Below are positions 1-9,374 of a stretch of 64,000 nt of DNA, in pieces. The position numbers and the translations under genes are program-made. The notes beneath the pieces were generated by a model, which saw nothing but the letters and a program-made list of their open reading frames with translations, was not told where the DNA came from and did no database searches. The DNA is from Archangium violaceum (GTDB lineage Bacteria > Myxococcota > Myxococcia > Myxococcales > Myxococcaceae), in contig NZ_CP069396.1 in NCBI RefSeq assembly GCF_016887565.1, positions 7,236,001 through 7,300,000 on the forward strand, given 5' to 3'. How positions within the stretch are numbered: position 1 is the stretch's first letter; each line of letters starts with the position of its first letter.

Positions 1-2749
1 ACCAGTTGGAGAGGGCGTCCACCAGCGCCACCAGCCGCTGGGCGGCCTCGTAGACCTGGTAGGTGTCCAGCGACCGGGTGACGTCGCGCAGGGCGAGCTG
101 CACCTCGGAGAGGATCCACCGGTCCAGCACGGTGCGCTGCTTCGGCTCGCGCCAGCCGGTGCTCTTGCGGATGGCGAGCCAGGGCACCTCGGAGGAGTCC
201 GGGTTGCCGCGGGCCGGCGAGAAGCCGTCGATGTTCGCGTAGATGGTGAAGAACGAGTAGACGTTGCGCAGCTTGACCTGGAAGTCCTTCTGCAGGAGCC
301 GCACGTTGCTCAGCGAGTGGCGCGTGTTGGACCAGGTGGGGCTGGCGGCGAAGAAGAACCAGCGGAAGGCGTCCGCGCCCGGGGCCCGGCTGGCCGGATC
401 CTTGAGCACCACGCGCTCGGTGAGAGCCAGCCGGGGCACCTCCACCGGCATGACGTCCGCGCCGCGCGCCGAGGGCGCCACGCCCAGCGCCTCCAGGTCC
501 TTCTTCGCCAGCAGCACCACGCGCCGCTTGAGCTTCTTGTGCACCTTCACCGTGAGGGTGAGGGCCTTGTCCGCCGCGTTCGGACGGAAGATCTGCACCT
601 TCGAGCCCTCCTGGATGTCCAGACCCTCTAGGTCCTCGCGGGCGATGAGCGCCTCGCCAGCCACACCGGGGACACCCGCCGCCTTGTCATCCAACACGGC
701 GAAGTCCATCCGCACCTCGTCGAGGATGATCTCCGGCGGGGTGTAGTTGCCCTTGGACTTGGACTCCTTCTTGCCCTCCTTGTCGGAGACGTGGCCCAGG
801 ACGATGCAGCTCTTGTACGGAATGGGCCAGCCGCGCTCGGGGGTGAGGCCCTCGCGCCGCTGCGTCTCCTCGTCGAAGACGAGCGTGCTGATCATCAGCA
901 GCGAGTAGAACCAGCCACGCGTCTGGTCGATGGCCTCGGAGATGAAGTCGGCGGGGAAGGCCTGGGCGAACTTCTCGCGCGAGCCGGGCGCGTGGGGGTA
1001 GCCCCACTGGGCGAAGGGCATGCACCCCGAGTCGAACCACACGTCCACGACCTCGGGCACGCGCACGAAGCGGCCGGGGGTGCCGGGCTTCTCGTAGGTG
1101 ACCTTGTCGATCCACGGCTTGTGGACGATGAGGTGCTCGGCGCTGGTGGCACCGGGCTTGCGGGCGATGAAGGCCTTGAGCTCGGCCTCCACGGCGGCCA
1201 GGTTGCTGCCGGGCTTCTCGCGCAGGGCCTGGAGCGAGGAGATGGCCTCCACCTCGCCCGTCTCCGAGTGCACCCAGAGCGGCAGGGGCGTGCCCCAGTA
1301 GCGCTCGCGGGAGAGGGCCCAGTCCACGTTGTTGGCGAGGAAGTCGCCGAAGCGGCCCTCCTTGATGTGCTCGGGGACCCAGTTGACGGCGCGGTTGTTG
1401 GCGATGGCCCTGTCCTTCACGGACGTGGTGCGGATGTACCAGGCGGGCCGGGCGAACTGGATGAGCGGGTCGTCATCCGCGCGCCAGCAGAACGGGTACT
1501 CGTGGCGGTACTGCTCGACGAGGAGCATCCGGCCGCGCTCCTTGAGCTCGCGCTGGATCTCCTTGTCCGCGTCCTTGACGAAGCGGCCGGTGAGCTGGGG
1601 GAAGTCCTCGGAGAAGGTGCCGTCCGGGCGGATGGCGCAGAACATCTCCAGGGCCTCGGGCTTCGCGAAGCGGGTGCGCTCGTGGCGGAAGGCCTCGTAG
1701 TCGTCCTCGCCGAAGGCCGGAGCGACGTGGACGATGCCCGTGCCGCTGGAGAGGGTGACGAAGTCCGCGCCGATGACGCGCCAGGCGGGCGTGTCCGAGC
1801 CCCCGCCCGCGAGCGGCAGCTCCGTGTTGCCCACGCGCTGGAAGTACACGTCATAGGGAGGCGAGTAGCGCAGACCCACCAGCTCGCTGCCCTTGCGCGT
1901 CTGGAGGACGGGCAGGTCCTTCTTGAGCTTCTTGGCCAGCTCCTCGCGCAGGGCGGCGGCGATGATGAGCTTGCGGTCACCGGCGTCGACGGTGACGTAG
2001 TCCACCGTGGGGTTGACGGCGGCGAACATGTTGGACGGGAGCGTCCAGGGCGTGGTGGTCCAGATGAGGAGCGCGGTGTCGGGCGAGTCGCGCAGGGGGA
2101 AGGCGACATAGGCGCTGGGGTCGTCCACGGTGCGGTAGCCCATGCCGACCTCGCCGGAGCTCAGCGCGGTGCCACCCTGGGGCCACCACCAGACGATCTT
2201 GTGCCCCCGATAGAGCAGGCCCTTGCGGAACAGCTCGGCCAGGGCCCACCAGACGCTCTCCACGTAGCCGCGGTGGTAGGTGACGTAGGCATCGGGGAGG
2301 TCCACCCAGAAGCCGATGCGCTCGGTCAGACGCTCCCACTCGTTGGTGTAGCGGAAGACGGACTCGATGCAGCGCTCGGTGAAGGGCTCCACGCCGTAGC
2401 GCTCGATCTCCGCCTTGCCGTGGATGCGCAGCTCCTTCTCGACCTCGACCTCGACGGGGAGGCCGTGGGTGTCCCAGCCGGCCTTGCGGGGGACGCGGTA
2501 GCCGCGCATGGTCTTGTAGCGCGGGAACAGGTCCTTGATGACACGGGTAAGGACGTGGCCGTTGTGGGGCAGACCGTTGGCGGTGGGCGGACCCTCGTAG
2601 AAGACGAAGGCGGGAGCGTCGTCCCGGCCCTGGAGCGTCTGCTCGAAGATCCTGCGCTCCTTCCAGAAGGCGAGGATGCGGCGCTCGTCGGCGGGAAAGT
2701 CGATCTCGTTGGGAACGGTGGCGAACAGGGGGCCGGTGGACTGGGACAT
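1..2749 (-). CDS. ileS: Isoleucyl-tRNA synthetase, 3' end cut by window
   Basis: Class I synthetase that charges tRNA-Ile in the cytoplasm. About 916 codons are visible, and the C-terminal anticodon-binding part continues beyond base 1. The N-terminus has EGPPTANGLPHNGH (HIGH-type motif, here HNGH) followed by IKDLFPRYKTMRGY. The editing-domain stretch TTTPWTLP and WALSRERYWGTPLPLW are clear. The KMSKS loop reads KESKSKGNY near residue 661. GADAFRW normally follows about 20 residues later, but here it comes about 128 residues later (near residue 789), so roughly 105 extra residues sit in frame between them. Some zinc-site cysteines of related enzymes are absent (CWRADDD). The overall sequence resembles the Thermus/eukaryote-like IleRS branch. 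The start ATG at 2749 gives the usual short leader. Housekeeping assignment is secure; the insert is unusual. Confidence 0.96.
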   Translation of the reverse strand, partial: MSQSTGPLFATVPNEIDFPADERRILAFWKERRIFEQTLQGRDDAPAFVFYEGPPTANGLPHNGHVLTRVIKDLFPRYKTMRGYRVPRKAGWDTHGLPVEVEVEKELRIHGKAEIERYGVEPFTERCIESVFRYTNEWERLTERIGFWVDLPDAYVTYHRGYVESVWWALAELFRKGLLYRGHKIVWWWPQGGTALSSGEVGMGYRTVDDPSAYVAFPLRDSPDTALLIWTTTPWTLPSNMFAAVNPTVDYVTVDAGDRKLIIAAALREELAKKLKKDLPVLQTRKGSELVGLRYSPPYDVYFQRVGNTELPLAGGGSDTPAWRVIGADFVTLSSGTGIVHVAPAFGEDDYEAFRHERTRFAKPEALEMFCAIRPDGTFSEDFPQLTGRFVKDADKEIQRELKERGRMLLVEQYRHEYPFCWRADDDPLIQFARPAWYIRTTSVKDRAIANNRAVNWVPEHIKEGRFGDFLANNVDWALSRERYWGTPLPLWVHSETGEVEAISSLQALREKPGSNLAAVEAELKAFIARKPGATSAEHLIVHKPWIDKVTYEKPGTPGRFVRVPEVVDVWFDSGCMPFAQWGYPHAPGSREKFAQAFPADFISEAIDQTRGWFYSLLMISTLVFDEETQRREGLTPERGWPIPYKSCIVLGHVSDKEGKKESKSKGNYTPPEIILDEVRMDFAVLDDKAAGVPGVAGEALIAREDLEGLDIQEGSKVQIFRPNAADKALTLTVKVHKKLKRRVVLLAKKDLEALGVAPSARGADVMPVEVPRLALTERVVLKDPASRAPGADAFRWFFFAASPTWSNTRHSLSNVRLLQKDFQVKLRNVYSFFTIYANIDGFSPARGNPDSSEVPWLAIRKSTGWREPKQRTVLDRWILSEVQLALRDVTRSLDTYQVYEAAQRLVALVDALSNW

Positions 2750-3156
2750 GGCGGCCGAGTGATAGCACCTGCCGCGCCCGGGTGTAGGCCCTTTCGTGAC
2801 GGCCCGGCGCCCGTGTCCACCCTGCATCACCTTGGTCCTACCCTGGCTCGCGAACACGGGCTGAAGGTTTTCGGCGCCGCCATGCACCATGAGTGTCCCC
2901 GAATCGGCACAAGGTGCGTCCCTCCTTCGCCGACATGCTCACCCCCCTGCGCTATTCCTGTCTGCGTGCCACCATTTCCGCAAACCCACAGGACAAACAG
3001 GGTCGACAAAACCTCCTCCTGTTACTGCCCGGCTCCTTGAAGGCAGTCGCTTGAGCTTCGACCAAAGTGCGAAACTCGAACCAAGCTCACGTGCGAAGCG
3101 CGGGGGCACAGCGCCACTCCTTGACACTCGCCCACTGTCGTGTTTCCATCACAAGC
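2750..3156. other. Divergent intergenic spacer between ileS and the GH45 gene
   Basis: About 407 bases without a convincing gene. It must carry the ileS promoter (minus strand) and the promoter of the GH45-like gene (plus strand). Composition shifts from typical high GC near ileS to a more mixed composition near 3000-3150, consistent with the edge of an inserted segment. I see no integrase, tRNA or direct repeat marking the boundary. Confidence 0.5.
3121..3149 (+). promoter_or_regulatory. Candidate sigma-70-type promoter for the GH45-like gene
   Basis: A perfect TTGACA at 3121-3126 is followed after 17 bases by TTCCAT (3 of 6 matches to TATAAT) at 3144-3149. Transcription would begin about 3156, essentially at the ATG at 3157. 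The message would then be leaderless, or translation would begin at the in-frame ATG at 3196. No Shine-Dalgarno is evident before either start. Confidence 0.35.
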
Positions 3157-3924
3157 ATGCTAAACATTGGTAACGGGATTACCCTTCGGCGAACGATGAT
3201 TGTAATGACGGCGCTCGTCCTCTTGCCCGGCTGCAGCGTGATCGCTCCTGAGGCGGAGGCCGCAACATCGCCATCTTTTACTTATTTATCCGCTTCAGCA
3301 AATGGCAAAACGACCCGCTACTGGGATTGTTGCAAGCCAAGCGGTTCGTGGCCTGGAAAAGCTTCAGTCAAAACTGGTCCGGTCAAATCTTGCGCCAAAG
3401 ACGGCAAAACAGCGATCGATCCGAATCAGCTAAGCGGTTGCCAGGCTGGTGGCACCAGTTTCATGTGCGAGTCGCCTCAACCGTGGACTGTGAATGAAAA
3501 GCTATCGTATGGATTTGCCGCGGCGAATTTGGTCGGCAAACCGGAAAGCGATACGTCTTGCGCTTGTTACGCATTGCAATTCACCAGCGGACCCGTGAGC
3601 GGCAAGACGTTCGTGGCCCAGGTGGTCAACACAGCATCGGATTTAGGTTCGAACCAATTCGCTTTACTGATTCCTGGCGGTGGTGTTGGTCTTTTTAACG
3701 GTTGTCAGGCCCAATATAATGCTCCAGCCGATGGTTGGGGGGCCAGATACGGCGGTATCAGCAGTCAAGCCGAATGCTCCAAGTTGCCGGCCGCTTTACA
3801 GGCAGGTTGTAACTGGCGATTCGGTTGGTTTCAAAACGCGGATAATCCTACCGTGACCTTCCGTCGGGTCAAATGTCCAGCGGAAATCACTGCAAAGACT
3901 GGTTGCGTCCGCAAGGATGAATGA
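3157..3924 (+). CDS. GH45 endoglucanase-like exported protein lacking the catalytic acid
   Basis: 255 residues. The N-terminal hydrophobic segment ends in LVLLPGC, a possible lipobox, or is cleaved later near AEAATS. The mature part has the GH45 signature TTRYWDCCKPS, whose Asp is the catalytic base, then CACYALQFTSGPV, DLGSNQFALLIPGGGVG, RYGGISS and WRFGWFQNADNP, in the same order as fungal Cel45A. Compared with Humicola Cel45A (from memory), the catalytic acid in NHFDLNIPGGG is Ala here (NQFALLIPGGG). The two cysteines that pair there (KPSC and the first C of CCACY) are both replaced (KPSG and SCACY). The gene has much lower GC than its neighbours (two sampled 60-base lines are 52% and 45%) and uses TTA codons, so transfer is likely. 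The start is uncertain: 3157, 3196 or an upstream GTG at 3067. The fold assignment is strong; cellulase activity is doubtful. Confidence 0.88.
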   Translation: MLNIGNGITLRRTMIVMTALVLLPGCSVIAPEAEAATSPSFTYLSASANGKTTRYWDCCKPSGSWPGKASVKTGPVKSCAKDGKTAIDPNQLSGCQAGGTSFMCESPQPWTVNEKLSYGFAAANLVGKPESDTSCACYALQFTSGPVSGKTFVAQVVNTASDLGSNQFALLIPGGGVGLFNGCQAQYNAPADGWGARYGGISSQAECSKLPAALQAGCNWRFGWFQNADNPTVTFRRVKCPAEITAKTGCVRKDE

Positions 3925-3971
3925 GGGGATATCAGGGCGGGTTCCCGCGACAAGGAGGTGCACGGTCGCGA

Positions 3972-3997
3972 GGGAGGAGTCCTACCAGACTCCTCCC
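3972..3997. terminator. Hairpin between convergent genes
   Basis: GGGAGGAGT (3972-3980) and ACTCCTCCC (3989-3997) form a perfect 9-bp stem with an 8-base loop. It lies in the short gap between the stop codons of the GH45-like gene and the leftward gene at 4021, where it could end both transcripts. There is no clear T-run. Confidence 0.5.
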
Positions 3998-4020
3998 CAT
4001 TCCACCGTGAGCACCTCACC

Positions 4021-5898
4021 TCAACGCAGGCGGATGCCGTCGAGCACCAGCGGCTGCTTGGACCCCTGTTGCTTCCAGAGGTTCACGAGCACCGAATCCG
4101 CCGGATCGTTCTGGTTGACGAGCGCCTCGAGCTGCATGCCCTTCTGCACGAGGTCGGCCTCCGCCTTGGACAGGAGCACCGGTTCCGCCTGGAAGGTGTG
4201 CTTCTTCATGGGCCCGACATCCTTGCACGTCTTGCGGAAGACGGGCCGGACGCTCCGGCCCACGACGCTGAAGCGCAGGAACTCGTCGCTGTTCTCACAC
4301 ACGACATCCCGGTAGGTTTTCGTGAACTTCTTGAAGGTGATCCACACGCCTTCCGGGGTCTCGCGCTTCGACACCACCACCGCGGGCATTTCCTCGACAT
4401 TGCCGATGGTCGAGATGGAGGCCTGCATGCCTCGCACCTGTTCCGCCAGATCGTTCGAGGCGCTCTGGGTCTCGGGCACCTGGGGCAGGTCGTCGATGGC
4501 CTCCCAGTTGGGGATGGCCTGCACGCGTTGCTCCTTCGTCGGCAGATCCCGCTTGGCCTGCCACCGCGCATTCAGGCGCGCGTAGAAGACCTTTTCCTCC
4601 TCGGTCACCCGGCGCGAGCCCTTGATGAGGTTCTCCGCCTCCAGCTTCGCGCGCGCGAGGTGGCCGCGCACCAGGTAACAGGCGGTGAGCGCCTCGGTGA
4701 TCTGGTACCCGAGGGGATGGCCGGTGCGCAGCTCTCGCACGCCCTGTTCGTCCTTCGGCTGGAGCTCGGCCTCGAGTGAGGCCCGCAGGGAGAGCAGCTT
4801 CTCCTCGCAGTCGGCGGGCATCCCCTCGTGAGCCCCGCGCCGCAGCGCCTCGGCCGTCATGGGCTCCAGTGTCCGCAGCGCCTCCGCGTAGCGCACGAGG
4901 AACTCGGCGTGAACGCGGCGCGCCGCGTCGGCCGAGTCGCGGAAGATGGCCTTCATCCGGGGAGCCTGTGCCTCCAGCCGCGTGAAGGCGGCCACCACCT
5001 CCTCCCGCGCCTCGAGCGTGCGTTGCGCGACGTACACGAGGTTCGCCTTCTCCCAGGCGCGTCCGGGGAAGACGGCCTCGGAGGCCGCCTCGACCTCGGC
5101 CTGCGTGGGGACCGTCGTCCCCAAGGCTTCGGCACAGTGGACATAGGTGCCATAGGAGTCAGGCACCTTCCACTCGGTGGAGGCGTAGCAGTGGAACATC
5201 AACGCCAGGCGGTAGAGCGTGCCTCGGGGAGAGTCGGACGCCCCCGTCTGGAGTTCCCGGGCGAGAAGCCGGCGCGGGTCCCCCTCGGGGAGCTTTCCGC
5301 TCCACAGTTGGTACTTGCTGAAGGAGGGGTCCACCCCCTCCACGTCATAACCACAGGCGAGTCTCGCCAGGTAGTCGTCCGGGCCGGCATGATCGAAAGG
5401 GCTGCCGTTCGACGAACGCTGGAAGAACATCCCCCACGTGATGCGGCCAGAGGCGGGGCTCGGCTGCCCGGAGATGTGCGCGGCGCCCTTGTTCTTCTCG
5501 GGCTGGATTCCCGCTGCCGCATCCCATTCGTCCGTGGTCCGGCAGCGTTTTGGCTTCGCCTCCCAGCGCGCGCTCACCGACTTCTTGTCCCCGCCCGGGC
5601 TCGTCGCCGCCACCGCATCCTCCGCGGCCTGCATCAGCCGCTTCGCCTCCTCGTAATCACGGAGGACGTCCGCGTACCCGGGCAGCTCCCGCATCGCGGG
5701 GGCCATGTTCCCCCGGATGCAGACCTCCTCGATGGTACGGAACATGGAGGCGCCCTCGGCGGGGCCGCCCTTCTGCAATCGGCGCACGGCGGTTCGCGCG
5801 TCTTGCTGGCACATCGAGAGCATGCCCTGGGGGTCCCCCGCGCGAGCCACGGTGGAGACCGCGAGCGACGCGACGAGGAACAGGGGAATGTGTTTCAC
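4021..5898 (-). CDS. Exported protein of unknown function
   Basis: About 625 residues. I chose the GTG at 5898 because it is preceded by AGGAG at good spacing and gives a clean signal peptide (KHIPLFLVASLAVSTVARA). The mature protein is hydrophilic and mostly helical in appearance, with no membrane segments. Scattered cysteines (MLSMCQQD, EEVCIRG, KRCRTTD, HCYAS, ADCEEK) suit a periplasmic or secreted location. A stretch from about residue 100 to 200 (DEWDAAAGIQ...GRITWGMFF) looks globular. The C-terminal third has an ITFKKFTKTYRDVVC segment that could be a small beta domain. I do not recognise the family. It is transcribed alone, divergent from the DUF418 gene across a 183-base gap and convergent with the GH45-like gene. 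Confidence 0.8.
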   Translation of the reverse strand: MKHIPLFLVASLAVSTVARAGDPQGMLSMCQQDARTAVRRLQKGGPAEGASMFRTIEEVCIRGNMAPAMRELPGYADVLRDYEEAKRLMQAAEDAVAATSPGGDKKSVSARWEAKPKRCRTTDEWDAAAGIQPEKNKGAAHISGQPSPASGRITWGMFFQRSSNGSPFDHAGPDDYLARLACGYDVEGVDPSFSKYQLWSGKLPEGDPRRLLARELQTGASDSPRGTLYRLALMFHCYASTEWKVPDSYGTYVHCAEALGTTVPTQAEVEAASEAVFPGRAWEKANLVYVAQRTLEAREEVVAAFTRLEAQAPRMKAIFRDSADAARRVHAEFLVRYAEALRTLEPMTAEALRRGAHEGMPADCEEKLLSLRASLEAELQPKDEQGVRELRTGHPLGYQITEALTACYLVRGHLARAKLEAENLIKGSRRVTEEEKVFYARLNARWQAKRDLPTKEQRVQAIPNWEAIDDLPQVPETQSASNDLAEQVRGMQASISTIGNVEEMPAVVVSKRETPEGVWITFKKFTKTYRDVVCENSDEFLRFSVVGRSVRPVFRKTCKDVGPMKKHTFQAEPVLLSKAEADLVQKGMQLEALVNQNDPADSVLVNLWKQQGSKQPLVLDGIRLR

Positions 5899-6081
5899 GA
5901 GATGAAGGTCTCCTTGAGGGTTCAGGAGCACAATGCCATTCCCGATGGGAGGACGGACGGAAATCAGGCGGAGCGATCTCCTCCCAAGAGCGCGTGTCCC
6001 CTCGTCACGAACTTGCTCGCAACCCGGCTCGCACCGTGAGTGCGGCGATCGCCGGACTCCGTGTTCGGCTAGTCTCGTCGC

Positions 6082-7320
6082 GTGACTGAATCACATCCGC
6101 ACGTCCCCGTCCCCGCATCGGCCGACGAACGCCACGAGCTGATCGATGCCCTGCGCGGATTCGCGCTCGCTGGCGTGCTGATGGTCAACCTGGCGTCGCT
6201 CACGCTCTACGAATTCCTCCCCGAACCGGCTCGCGCCGTGCTCCCCACCGCGGGCTTCGATGGGGTGGCGATGCGCGGAATGGAGTTGCTGGTCAACGGC
6301 AAGTTCATCACCCTGTTTTCGCTGCTGTTCGGACTCGGGTTCGCGCTCCAACTGGAACGTGCCGAAGCGCGCGGCGCGGACGGCCTGCCGCGTTACGTGC
6401 GGCGCCTGCTCGTGCTGGCGGGCATGGGGCTGGTCCACGGCTATTTCGTCTGGTGGGGCGACATCCTGCTGACGTATGCGGTGGTGGGCCTGCTGATGGT
6501 GCCGGTCCGCCGCGCCTCCGATCGTGTGCTGTTGATCAGCGGTCTCGTCATCACGCTGCTGCCACCACTCCTGTCGCCTTGGATACGCGCATGGCTGCCA
6601 GAGATGCCCAGACAGCCGGAGGTCTATGCGGGTGCGCTGCGGGCGTTCTCGTCGGTGTCGTGGCCGGACACGCTGCACGAGAACATCCGCGTCGCGAGCT
6701 GGGCGCGCGTCTCCAACTGGCCGTTGGTGTTCTTCGTGCTGGGTCGCTTCCTCCTGGGCTACTGGGCCGGGCGTCGCGGCTTGTTGCAATACCCGGAGCG
6801 CCATCAGGCGCTGCTCCGCCGCGTCTTCTGGTGGAGCCTCGCCATCGGTATCGCGGTGACGTCGCTGTCCTTCGTGCAGGCCGCGTTGCGCGAGTCCTAT
6901 CCGCTGTTGGACCGCGAAGCCGGCAAGCTCGTCATCCGCGTGCTGTTGCGTGTGGGTCCGCTGGCGTTGGGCATTGCGTATGCCACTGGCTTCGCACTGC
7001 TGTTCCCACGACCCGCCTGGAAGCGGCGACTATGCGTCCTCGCGCCGGTAGGCCGCATGGCGCTCACGCACTATCTGACGCAGAGCGTGCTCGGCGTGGC
7101 GTTTTTCTACGGGATTGGCGTCGGCATCGGTCCGCGCTGGGGCGTGGCCGGCTGGTGGGGAGCGTGGGCCGTCATCTTCGCCGCACAGCTCCTCATCAGC
7201 CATTTCTGGCTGGCGCGTTTCCGTTATGGACCGATGGAATGGCTCTGGCGCTGGTTGACGTACGGACGACGGCCGGAGCTGCGACGTCATGCGGCGACGG
7301 CATTGTCCGGCGTGGACTGA
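6082..7320 (+). CDS. DUF418 family membrane protein
   Basis: 412 residues from a GTG start. The N-terminus DALRGFALAGVLMVNL is typical of the DUF418/YeiB family. It is followed by about eight to ten hydrophobic segments, including FITLFSLLFGLGFALQLER, GMGLVHGYFVWWGDILLTYA and a C-terminal APVGRMALTHYLTQS block, which is also family-typical. These inner-membrane proteins resemble acyltransferase-3-like folds, but no activity is established. It stands alone; the next gene converges on it. Codon use is slightly less GC-biased than in the housekeeping genes nearby. Start choice rests on the family N-terminus, because no strong Shine-Dalgarno is seen. Confidence 0.88.
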   Translation: MTESHPHVPVPASADERHELIDALRGFALAGVLMVNLASLTLYEFLPEPARAVLPTAGFDGVAMRGMELLVNGKFITLFSLLFGLGFALQLERAEARGADGLPRYVRRLLVLAGMGLVHGYFVWWGDILLTYAVVGLLMVPVRRASDRVLLISGLVITLLPPLLSPWIRAWLPEMPRQPEVYAGALRAFSSVSWPDTLHENIRVASWARVSNWPLVFFVLGRFLLGYWAGRRGLLQYPERHQALLRRVFWWSLAIGIAVTSLSFVQAALRESYPLLDREAGKLVIRVLLRVGPLALGIAYATGFALLFPRPAWKRRLCVLAPVGRMALTHYLTQSVLGVAFFYGIGVGIGPRWGVAGWWGAWAVIFAAQLLISHFWLARFRYGPMEWLWRWLTYGRRPELRRHAATALSGVD

Positions 7321-7369
7321 GGTCCATTCACGGGAGACACGAAAACGCTGAGCGGGAGTTGGCGGATGC

Positions 7370-8017
7370 TCAAGCACCCTCGCCATTCATCTGCTTGCGC
7401 ATGGCCTCTCGCTGCTGGAGCAATTTCTCGCGCTCCTGCGAGATGAGCTCCCGTGCCCGGGGCTTCTGCGCATCGGTGAGTTGCGCCTCCGCCTCGTTGT
7501 AGGCGCGGGTGTCGTTGTCCTGCATCTCGTGCATCGCGGACCGGGCCTGCGCCATCCGCTCGCGCATCGCCTCCCTGTTCTGGCCGCTGCCCTCATGTCC
7601 ACCGCCCTCGGCGCCCGGGCCGCCCCTGCCACCACCCATTCCGCCCATCCCACCACCCATTCCTCCTCCCATGTGACCGCCCCCCATTCCTCCTCCCATG
7701 CCGCTACCGCCCCTGCCGCCCCTATGACCACCGCCCCTGAACCCTCCGCCCTCTCCCCTGCGGCCGAAGGACTCCGCGACCTTCTTCTTGAGCGGGGCGT
7801 TCTCCGCCTGGAGCTGCTCGTCCCGCTTCTGCAACCAGCCAATCTGCTCGGTGGTAAGAGCCAGCTCGGCGCGGTGCTCGATCAGCACGGCCAGGGAGGA
7901 TTTGATCTCGGGCGGTGCCTGGGGGCCGTGCTCGGGCGGGCGTTGGGCAGTGTCGGCTCCGGCGCAAGCGGCAAGCGAGATTGCCAGGCACAAGCACAAC
8001 AACATCTTTCGCTGCAT
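7370..8017 (-). CDS. Gly/Met/His-rich lipoprotein with LTxxQ-like helical parts
   Basis: 215 residues. The signal peptide ends in the lipobox SLAAC, so the protein is probably lipid-anchored. A helical segment (LIEHRAELALTTEQIGWLQKRDEQL) resembles the LTxxQ motif of Spy/CpxP-type periplasmic proteins. It is followed by a 60-residue glycine-rich tract (about residues 88-147) studded with Met, His and Arg (GMGGGMGGGHMGGG). A second helical part, ending in LTDAQKPRARELISQEREKL, repeats the LTxxQ flavour. The Met/His-rich tract suggests metal binding, but that is inference. It is transcribed alone, with a 348-base region upstream. It could be a stress chaperone or metal sensor; I know of no exact match. 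Confidence 0.8.
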   Translation of the reverse strand: MQRKMLLCLCLAISLAACAGADTAQRPPEHGPQAPPEIKSSLAVLIEHRAELALTTEQIGWLQKRDEQLQAENAPLKKKVAESFGRRGEGGGFRGGGHRGGRGGSGMGGGMGGGHMGGGMGGGMGGMGGGRGGPGAEGGGHEGSGQNREAMRERMAQARSAMHEMQDNDTRAYNEAEAQLTDAQKPRARELISQEREKLLQQREAMRKQMNGEGA

Positions 8018-8365
8018 GGGATCTCTCCGAAACGAGGGGCTTCGCCCCGAATCCGCCGCGCTCCGCGGGCGGGAGCCGTGGACATGTTGCCCTCACGGTA
8101 TTTCGGGCAGGTGTTGGCACGGTGAAGGGTTCGTTTCGGAAGATTTCCGGCTCACCTCCGTGCCAGACGGCTTCACGGACGAGCCGACAGGGCTACCGCC
8201 CCCCCTGTCCCGCTACCGCAGACTGTCCAGAAGTCAACAGTTCTCAACAGAACGAGTCATCCACACAAAGATCGGCCCACTGGCCCGCGGGCTGCTGTTC
8301 CGCAGCAGCCTCGCGGGATCCACAAATGCGGCGCACCACTCGCGGAGCTACTGGGGCGACGATTC
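8018..8365. other. 348-base intergenic region
   Basis: No open frame here looks coding. It is the upstream region of the leftward Gly-rich lipoprotein gene and also holds the end of the leftward gene pair at 8366-9374, including the hairpin at 8284-8317. I see no strong promoter consensus. Confidence 0.45.
8284..8317 (-). terminator. Hairpin downstream of the 8366-9374 gene pair
   Basis: Arms CCCGCGGGCTGCTG and CAGCAGCCTCGCGGG pair over 14 positions with one bulged base and a 5-base loop. It starts about 49 bases past the stop codon of the leftward gene at 8366. There is no T-run, so this could be a transcript 3' end stabiliser rather than an intrinsic terminator. Confidence 0.45.
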
Positions 8366-8767
8366 TCACGGTGATTCGGGGTCCTCCTTCCATTCTTCAT
8401 CCGTTTCCAATTCTTCCGGGAGAGGCGCCACCATGAGCCTCAGCTTTCCTGTCACTTCAACAGCCATGAAGCCCTTGCCAGCGATCTTCACACGTTCGGA
8501 GTCCTTGGCATTCCCGCTGGCAAGCCACTGGTCCGCTTCCGCTCGCGTCGCGAACTCGTGAGACACTTCGACCGTGAATGACGTATCGGAGAATCTTTTA
8601 TAATACCTGGCAAAATCATCCTCCTTCTTGTTGTCACGGATATAGAGCATCGCAGCCTGAGCAAGCTTGAATGCCTCCCTCTCTTTCGATCCCTCCGCAT
8701 GACTCTCGATGAAGGGATTCAGAACGAGGAGCATTTCCTCCAAATCGAAGTCTGAAGTGGATGCCAT
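8366..8767 (-). CDS. Small acidic cytoplasmic protein, partner of the lipoprotein upstream
   Basis: 133 residues from the ATG at 8767; a TTG four codons earlier is possible. The protein is acidic with no signal peptide or membrane segment. It reads as alpha/beta: an N-terminal helical part (DFDLEEMLLVLNPFIESH), a central helix (AFKLAQAAMLYIRDN) and a beta-rich end (VKIAGKGFMAVEVTGKLRLMVAPLPEE). It follows the lipoprotein gene by 25 bases and is surely co-transcribed. Codon use is visibly less GC-rich than in most of the window. The pairing of an exported or anchored protein with a small acidic cytoplasmic partner is the layout of toxin/immunity or modification pairs, but nothing in the sequence proves that. 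Confidence 0.75.
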   Translation of the reverse strand: MASTSDFDLEEMLLVLNPFIESHAEGSKEREAFKLAQAAMLYIRDNKKEDDFARYYKRFSDTSFTVEVSHEFATRAEADQWLASGNAKDSERVKIAGKGFMAVEVTGKLRLMVAPLPEELETDEEWKEDPESP

Positions 8768-8792
8768 ATCATCACCCAATTCTGCTATCAGC

Positions 8793-9374
8793 TCACAGTG
8801 GAGCCAAGATCAGCGCGCCACCCGCTGCTATGGCAACGACGTAAGGGGCAGCAGCCACGCCCGCGACGATGACGATCGTTCCAACCGCAACCTCGGTCTT
8901 GTGCTCCCTGAGCCAGTCGAGCGCAGCGTCGATAGTTGGAAAATGAAGTTCCTTCCTCTGTAACTCCTGACGCTCCAGTTCCTCCTGTTCTTTGACGCAC
9001 CTCATGAACTCTTCGCGGCACGTTTTGGTACAGTGTTCATGGTGCTTGCCAGAGCCCTTATCGATGCTCGAAATGTTGGGCTTCCGTCTCCAGCATGTTC
9101 TGAAGCACTTCTTTTCCATTTCGCTACAGTAGGCGTCAGCGCCAGCCCCGCCTGTTCCGCCCTCGACGCTGGAGCCAACTCCGCTCGCGTCCTCGGAAAT
9201 GACGTAGACATTGCGCTCTGGCGGCTGTGTGTGGGCACATCCGAGGCTGGTCGTTGCCACAGCGATCAGCAGAGCCACCCATCTCGTCAGACCTACAGGG
9301 TGCATCGCTCCCGCCATGCCGAGCAGGATCCGCGAAGCCCGCCAGCCGGAACGGCCGAAATGGCGGTAGAGCAT
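8793..9374 (-). CDS. Cys-rich lipoprotein with C-terminal hydrophobic segment
   Basis: 193 residues from the ATG at 9374, which has a strong AAGGAGG six bases upstream. An internal ATG at 9305 would give a more standard-length signal. The lipobox is SLGC after a hydrophobic stretch. The mature part has a cysteine-rich helical block (CSEMEKKCFRTC, HCTKTCREEFMRC) likely to form disulfides. An FPTIDAALDWLREHKTEVAVG segment follows, leading into a long Ala/Gly/Val hydrophobic C-terminus. The block plus hydrophobic end recalls lipoproteins expanded in Myxococcales, some of which are contact-dependent toxins of the Sit type; this is a resemblance only. It is co-transcribed with the acidic partner at 8366 and divergent from the muramidase gene. 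Confidence 0.75.
   Translation of the reverse strand: MLYRHFGRSGWRASRILLGMAGAMHPVGLTRWVALLIAVATTSLGCAHTQPPERNVYVISEDASGVGSSVEGGTGGAGADAYCSEMEKKCFRTCWRRKPNISSIDKGSGKHHEHCTKTCREEFMRCVKEQEELERQELQRKELHFPTIDAALDWLREHKTEVAVGTIVIVAGVAAAPYVVAIAAGGALILAPL

Follow-up and report, generated by a model that had tools for sequence, protein, structure and literature searches.

Introduction

GH45 glycosidases act by inversion. Their catalytic acid is an Asp, and in subfamilies A and B the base is an Asp too (excerpts of PMC10909974). GH45 is listed among the families unique to cellulase activity in an excerpt of the PMC12093494 study, and it was found in 128 of 409 fungi versus 31 of 16,401 bacteria according to an excerpt of PMC13084967; one bacterial GH45 has been noted among the GH45s of springtails in excerpts of PMC6509783. 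The same excerpts describe natural members with a changed acid: the beetle protein DVI4, in which it is Val, was inactive on the substrates tested, and the weevil proteins SOR3-5, in which it is Glu, are active xyloglucanases.

Acid-less GH45s are thus already known in beetles, and the protein described here is a bacterial variant; among the matches listed in searches of open-licence papers, there was no bacterial pseudo-GH45. The gene lies in a stretch of 64,000 nucleotides, the whole of which we call the window. An earlier note on this DNA had recognized an open frame for a GH45-like protein without its catalytic acid, and had offered three functions for it: a non-catalytic glucan-binding protein, an expansin-like wall loosener, or an enzyme using another residue.

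Results and discussion

An intact gene with the predicted fold of Cel45A

The reading frame is intact, as noted earlier, and encodes a hydrophobic N-terminus followed by a single domain (Table 1). Its start ATG is matched by an ATG in 12 of 14 other copies in an alignment extended upstream, the exceptions being those of genomes G072 and G023. The protein is presumably secreted, judging from its N-terminus, where the predicted model has low pLDDT across residues 1-40; the lipobox-like LPGC run in the putative signal peptide, with Pro at -2, departs from the usual lipobox pattern. Upstream, TTGAC at the position of the CTTGACACTC element is common to 11 of the 15 GH45 copies compared. A consensus promoter scan gave no plus-strand site and likewise did not report this element, and Rfam at gathering score had no matches in 2500-4500.

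Table 1. Features of the GH45 gene and its upstream region, by position in the window.
Feature	Position	Strand	Basis or remarks
Possible -35 region, CTTGACACTC element upstream of start	3120..3129	+	sequence
GH45-like CDS	3157..3924	+	255 aa, ATG to TGA
Putative N-terminal signal peptide	3157..3261	+	judged by eye: RR, hydrophobic run, AEA/ATS
Asp57 = Cel45A Asp10, catalytic base, kept	3325..3327	+	alignment
Gly63 at Cel45A Cys16, half of lost disulfide	3343..3345	+	alignment
Ser134 at Cel45A Cys86, other half of lost disulfide	3556..3558	+	alignment
Asp162 = Cel45A Asp114, assisting residue, kept	3640..3642	+	alignment
Ala169, codon GCT, at Cel45A Asp121 (catalytic acid position)	3661..3663	+	alignment

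The GH45 assignment held up in both sequence and predicted structure. Pfam returned Glyco_hydro_45 (PF02015) at 240 bits, against a curated cut-off of 27; the sole further match with E no greater than 1 was a weak one to Smim3, under its own cut-off. In the structural comparison, the GH45 match takes up residues 48-255 of 255. An AlphaFold2 model built from 70 rows has a mean pLDDT of 88 and overlays Cel45A (4ENG), the comparison that the earlier note had proposed, with Z 34.9 and an rmsd of 0.9 Å over 204 residues. The relatives found in the PDB are eukaryotic subfamily A cellulases, the springtail enzyme 5h4u first, then those of Thielavia, Neurospora, Melanocarpus, Humicola and others.

The catalytic acid is replaced by alanine

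In a phmmer search against the PDB, SDLGSNQFALLIPGGG aligned gap-free through the motif with SDLNGNHFDLMIPGGG of springtail 5h4u and GDLGSNHFDLNIPGGG of 1l8f, which places Ala169 at Asp121 of Cel45A, the position of the catalytic acid. The equivalents of Tyr8, Asp10, Lys13, Trp18, Ala74 and Asp114 are all retained, Lys13 and Trp18 being residues that we take to have active-site roles, and Asp162 sits within a DLGSN loop that matches the fungal loop; at Cel45A position 112, Ala replaces Gly. The protein is therefore a GH45 by sequence and, on the predicted model, has the subfamily A double-psi barrel fold; of the catalytic set it has the assisting residue and, as the earlier note had read it, the base but not the acid.

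The gap-free alignment puts no acidic residue of the protein in the Asp121 column. Within residues 46-250, Glu105 is its sole acidic residue missing from all 13 clade rows compared, and it is distant from Ala169 in sequence.

The acid changes repeatedly within one clade

Searching the 96 genomes of the window's GTDB family for GH45 uncovered a eukaryote-type clade with repeated change at the acid, which had been overlooked before. This clade occupies 17 places in 15 of the 96 genomes, its proteins being about 53-86% identical to one another. It appears to be restricted to one bacterial family, which we take to be Myxococcaceae since two of the family's ORFs match those of named records, of Myxococcus and Corallococcus, exactly. 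For comparison outside the clade we drew on named genomes (the best 80 of the 110 loci with related sequences), and we set both groups side by side in an alignment, A1, of 69 of the non-redundant rows plus P0001. Counts over 14 clade rows exclude the truncated G023 copy and two fragments; L018 and L019 duplicate L011 and L014. The search seed peptides included TRYWDCCK, so the conservation of Tyr8, Asp10, Cys11, Cys12 and Lys13 in the outside rows is inflated; the acid motif was not among the seeds, and its column is unaffected.

Outside the clade, the acid is Asp in 105 of 105 rows (78 loci, from the best 80 of 110), including 56 of 56 in A1, where the Asp114 position is Asp in 47 of the 56 and Gly in nine. 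The 15 clade copies that cover the acid have Asp in eight, Glu in four, Ala in two and Ser in one, so that seven depart from Asp and three have no carboxylate at all. The base Asp10 is retained in all 14 copies that cover it (G023 is without that part). Asp114 is replaced in five copies, by Asn, Pro, Ala, Ser or Gly, and only five of the 14 copies covering all three sites have the full Asp10/Asp114/Asp121 set; one of these five, G003_B, carries an in-frame TAA just upstream. The acid-less G064 copy, with Ser121 and Ala114, has lost Asp114 too.

By parsimony, the acid changed at least four times within the clade: twice to Ala, once to Ser and once to Glu. Thirty-nine columns reach 96% identity or more across the 56 rows of A1 from outside the clade, and 27 of them are unchanged in the 14 clade rows; most of the fold has thus been held while the catalytic positions and two cysteine pairs moved. 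The acid column is the most changed of the 39, followed by three columns with three changes each (Tyr8, Cys12 and a Gly near Asp114), but it was picked because of the finding, and minus the window's own change its three changes are level with those of the next columns. For four A-clade rows whose branching order the tree does not settle, the parsimony count and the codon model below used an order chosen arbitrarily; the four acid changes are independent of it. The Ala codon is GCT in the window and GCC in G073, beside GAT or GAC in the Asp-bearing relatives, which points to independent one-base changes. A sequencing error as the source of Ala169 is countered indirectly, the genome being in one contig and G073 having an Ala codon of its own.

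The four Glu121 copies (L008, L010, L012 and L011, of G060, G069, G072 and G061) form a sublineage in which Tyr8 is replaced by Ala or Asn and Ala74 by Arg as well; L018, from a Myxococcus record whose species name begins "llanfairpwll", has exactly the ORF of G061. By analogy with weevil SOR3-5, these copies are candidate retuned enzymes, possibly xyloglucanases.

The earlier note had also observed that two cysteines are lost together. In Cel45A, Cys16 and Cys86 presumably pair as a disulfide. Both are absent from 14 of 14 clade rows and present in 56 of 56 others in A1, so that this loss, confirmed here, is a trait of the whole clade, unconnected with loss of the acid, a point that the first reading had missed. 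The cysteines at positions 59 and 95 are lost together in the seven A-clade rows. Cysteines are thus lost pairwise in the clade.

A likely import from a eukaryote

In a maximum-likelihood tree of 37 rows, the 15 clade rows grouped with three fungi and a springtail, the four eukaryotic sequences included, across a branch of length 0.75 with support 100/100; on its other side were the 18 other bacterial rows, other Myxococcota among them. The window protein is 61% identical to the springtail sequence, 57-58% to the fungal ones and 38-49% to the 18 other bacterial rows. The gene has 53% GC and, in its mature part, a GC3 of 0.53, in a window of 67.6% GC; two long predicted genes just downstream have GC3 of 0.83-0.89, and the other clade copies 0.58-0.87. 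Taken together, the tree, the composition and the patchy distribution suggest that the clade's GH45 was likely imported from a eukaryote.

The surroundings of the gene differ among the 14 loci compared, save for those of G060, G069 and G072, which are syntenic; lacking common neighbours elsewhere, we avoid the term orthologue. Four A-clade copies (L118, L119, L124 and L125) share a stretch of about 0.9-1.0 kb, which holds the gene plus a little DNA upstream of it, at 86-93% DNA identity, with adjoining flanks that are unlike, as if the stretch had moved as a compact cassette.

Positions 2813-8375 of the window, with the GH45 gene, an unassigned gene for 636 aa and a DUF418 gene, look like an accessory stretch. 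They had no blastn match in a 10.5 kb piece next to the ileS gene of G004, a genome with an IleS 98% identical across 919 compared residues, and blastn hits from G003, G005 and G006 stop at 2769-2805. The single GH45 of G004 is located elsewhere, and the DNA flanking it has only weak matches in G000. A second low-GC stretch, 8401-9000 (54-55% versus 67.6%), holds two short minus-strand ORFs and is possibly foreign too.

Other candidate glucanase genes in the same genome

The genome has a second GH45 copy (L001, G000:C1:11133059-11133655), which keeps the acid, has Asn for Asp114 and is without two cysteine pairs. The two copies show complementary active-site changes, and neither of these over-cut-off GH45s has the complete Cel45A set. 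A third GH45-like place, L115, is a weak match (E 2.9e-4). Other candidate cellulases in the genome are two GH6 places and one GH9, and PF03330 barrels occur at five places.

A probable glucan binder, weighed against decay

We think it likely that the product of the window gene is secreted, folds properly as a GH45, has lost hydrolysis through the change of its acid to Ala and binds beta-1,4-glucan uncut. With Ala in place of Asp121, there would be no side-chain proton to give, and in an inverting glycosidase without its acid the leaving glycosidic oxygen would stay unprotonated; the cleft being intact in the model, a beta-1,4-glucan would be bound and not cut. Ala cannot act as an acid; hydrolysis would be lost and binding retained. 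EG27II is, we assume, a GH45 of the snail type with D137 as its catalytic acid. PDB entry 5xca is, by its title, a crystal of the EG27II D137A mutant with cellobiose, which indicates that a GH45 with Ala for the acid is able to fold and bind. A useful inactive form is plausible by analogy with another cell-wall family, GH28, whose pseudoenzymes matter more to beetles than their active kin (excerpts of PMC6549527). The first of the three functions proposed earlier, glucan binding without catalysis, is thus compatible with our results; that it was selected for is a possibility.

A rival to which we give nearly an even chance concerns that last point. It holds that the gene is a decaying import of no lasting use, which lost its acid by drift and is en route to a pseudogene, any residual binding having no selected role. 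Decay and glucan binding agree on inactivity and differ on selection, so the probabilities assigned to them overlap. As decay would have it, Ala and Ser at the acid are confined to terminal branches, and no two species share either by descent. Occurrence is patchy, at 15 of 96 genomes, in surroundings that mostly differ. Four clade copies (L015, L016, L017 and L014) are broken, those of G002 and G033 as fragments, G003_B by its in-frame TAA, and that of G023 by loss of its N-terminal part including the base; the usual N-terminus is also missing from the G072 copy.

Rates of codon change bear on both readings. A codon model of 15 copies, which assumes one base composition though GC3 spans 0.53-0.87, gave an omega of 0.354 overall. 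The Glu121 clade, at 0.17 (versus 1, p about 4e-35), is strongly constrained. On the window's tip, omega was 0.56, a value that differs significantly neither from 1 (p=0.13) nor from that of the rest (p=0.18) and tells little on its own, and two tips with Asp121 but an altered Asp114 had 1.0, as decay would allow; against it, the two other acid-less tips had 0.54, below 1 (p=0.019). The broken copies G003_B and G023 jointly still gave 0.29, so omega says little about recent loss.

Conserved columns are harder to reconcile with decay. The window protein changed at one of 63 columns that are invariant in the other clade rows (G023 uncounted) and the eukaryotic ones, where about 10 changes would be expected if no part of its tip branch had been under constraint (P 0.0004); this points to constraint over most of the protein's history. 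If only the last quarter of the branch was unconstrained, the P for one of 63 is 0.24, and loss of the acid may be recent. Changes in the clade also cluster in a handful of columns, that of the acid among them, with 27 of 39 conserved columns fixed, whereas aimless decay should strike the core too.

The glucan-binder reading can be widened to the clade: GH45 genes would have been imported from soil eukaryotes and then altered time and again by selection at the acid, giving secreted glucan binders that do not cut where it is Ala or Ser and retuned enzymes where it is Glu, with the rest of the fold fixed. It would amount to one enzyme family being naturally disarmed, over and over, in bacteria. 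We regard this wider account as rather unlikely.

Continued catalysis, the third of the functions proposed earlier, strikes us as improbable. Here Asp162 (Asp114 of Cel45A) or some other residue would donate the proton, perhaps with an altered substrate preference. Asp162 is kept in its fungal-type loop and might support slow hydrolysis, and the active weevil xyloglucanases with Glu suggest that the site tolerates some change (excerpts of PMC6509783). An Ala, however, has no side-chain proton, and the Val of inactive DVI4 argues in the same direction. The acid-less G064 copy has lost Asp114 as well, no compensating rare acidic residue was found in the acid-less copies of G064 and G073, and in the window protein the search for one gave Glu105 alone, far off in sequence.

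Wall loosening of the expansin or loosenin type, without hydrolysis, we consider very improbable: the double-psi barrel is common to both (when structures were compared, expansins scored about Z 8) and a Stigmatella aurantiaca expansin is reported to have Leu at the position equivalent to Asp82 of BsEXLX1 (excerpt of PMC5072189), but in expansins, loosenins and swollenins it is the acid Asp that is retained and the base that is missing (excerpts of PMC10909974), changes of that Asp inactivate expansins (excerpt of PMC5072189), and the window protein, with Ala169 at this functional Asp, also has no second, beta-sandwich (CBM63) domain in Pfam at E up to 1, its GH45 match filling residues 48-255.

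Implications and comparison with known systems

GH45 hits in myxobacteria are scored as cellulases, yet 7 of 15 clade copies are non-Asp at the acid and 3 of 15 are carboxylate-less. Because close relatives changed the acid several times independently, some bacterial "cellulase" labels of GH45 type may be wrong. The clade is also a natural series, with Asp, Glu, Ser and Ala at the acid and Asp, Asn, Pro, Ala, Ser and Gly at the assisting residue, which suits tests of the GH45 versus the expansin versus the loosenin mechanism, and of how imported enzymes are remodelled.

The closest described systems are Humicola insolens Cel45A and its subfamily A relatives (4ENG, 5glx, 1l8f and 5h4u), at 53-60% identity over the domain. 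The window protein has the same predicted fold, motif order, Asp10, Asp114 and cleft residues; it is unlike Cel45A in having Ala at Asp121, one cysteine pair gone and Ala for Gly at 112. The Glu121 copies of G060, G069, G072 and G061 belong to the same clade and are changed at the same residue, but they keep a carboxylate, are changed at Tyr8 and Ala74 as well and are the more constrained by omega, three of them at syntenic loci. Expansins and loosenins are alike in the barrel and, in the excerpts cited above, the reverse in the active site, keeping the acid and lacking the base; the S. aurantiaca expansin is another myxobacterial barrel protein in which the equivalent residue is reported to be replaced. 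The nearest parallel in history is that of the beetle GH45s DVI4 (acid to Val) and LDE9 (base to Asn), which were horizontally acquired, as the clade here probably was, and lost a catalytic Asp (excerpts of PMC6509783). The beetle proteins belong to insect multigene families, whereas here one or two copies per bacterial genome have had one residue changed repeatedly across species.
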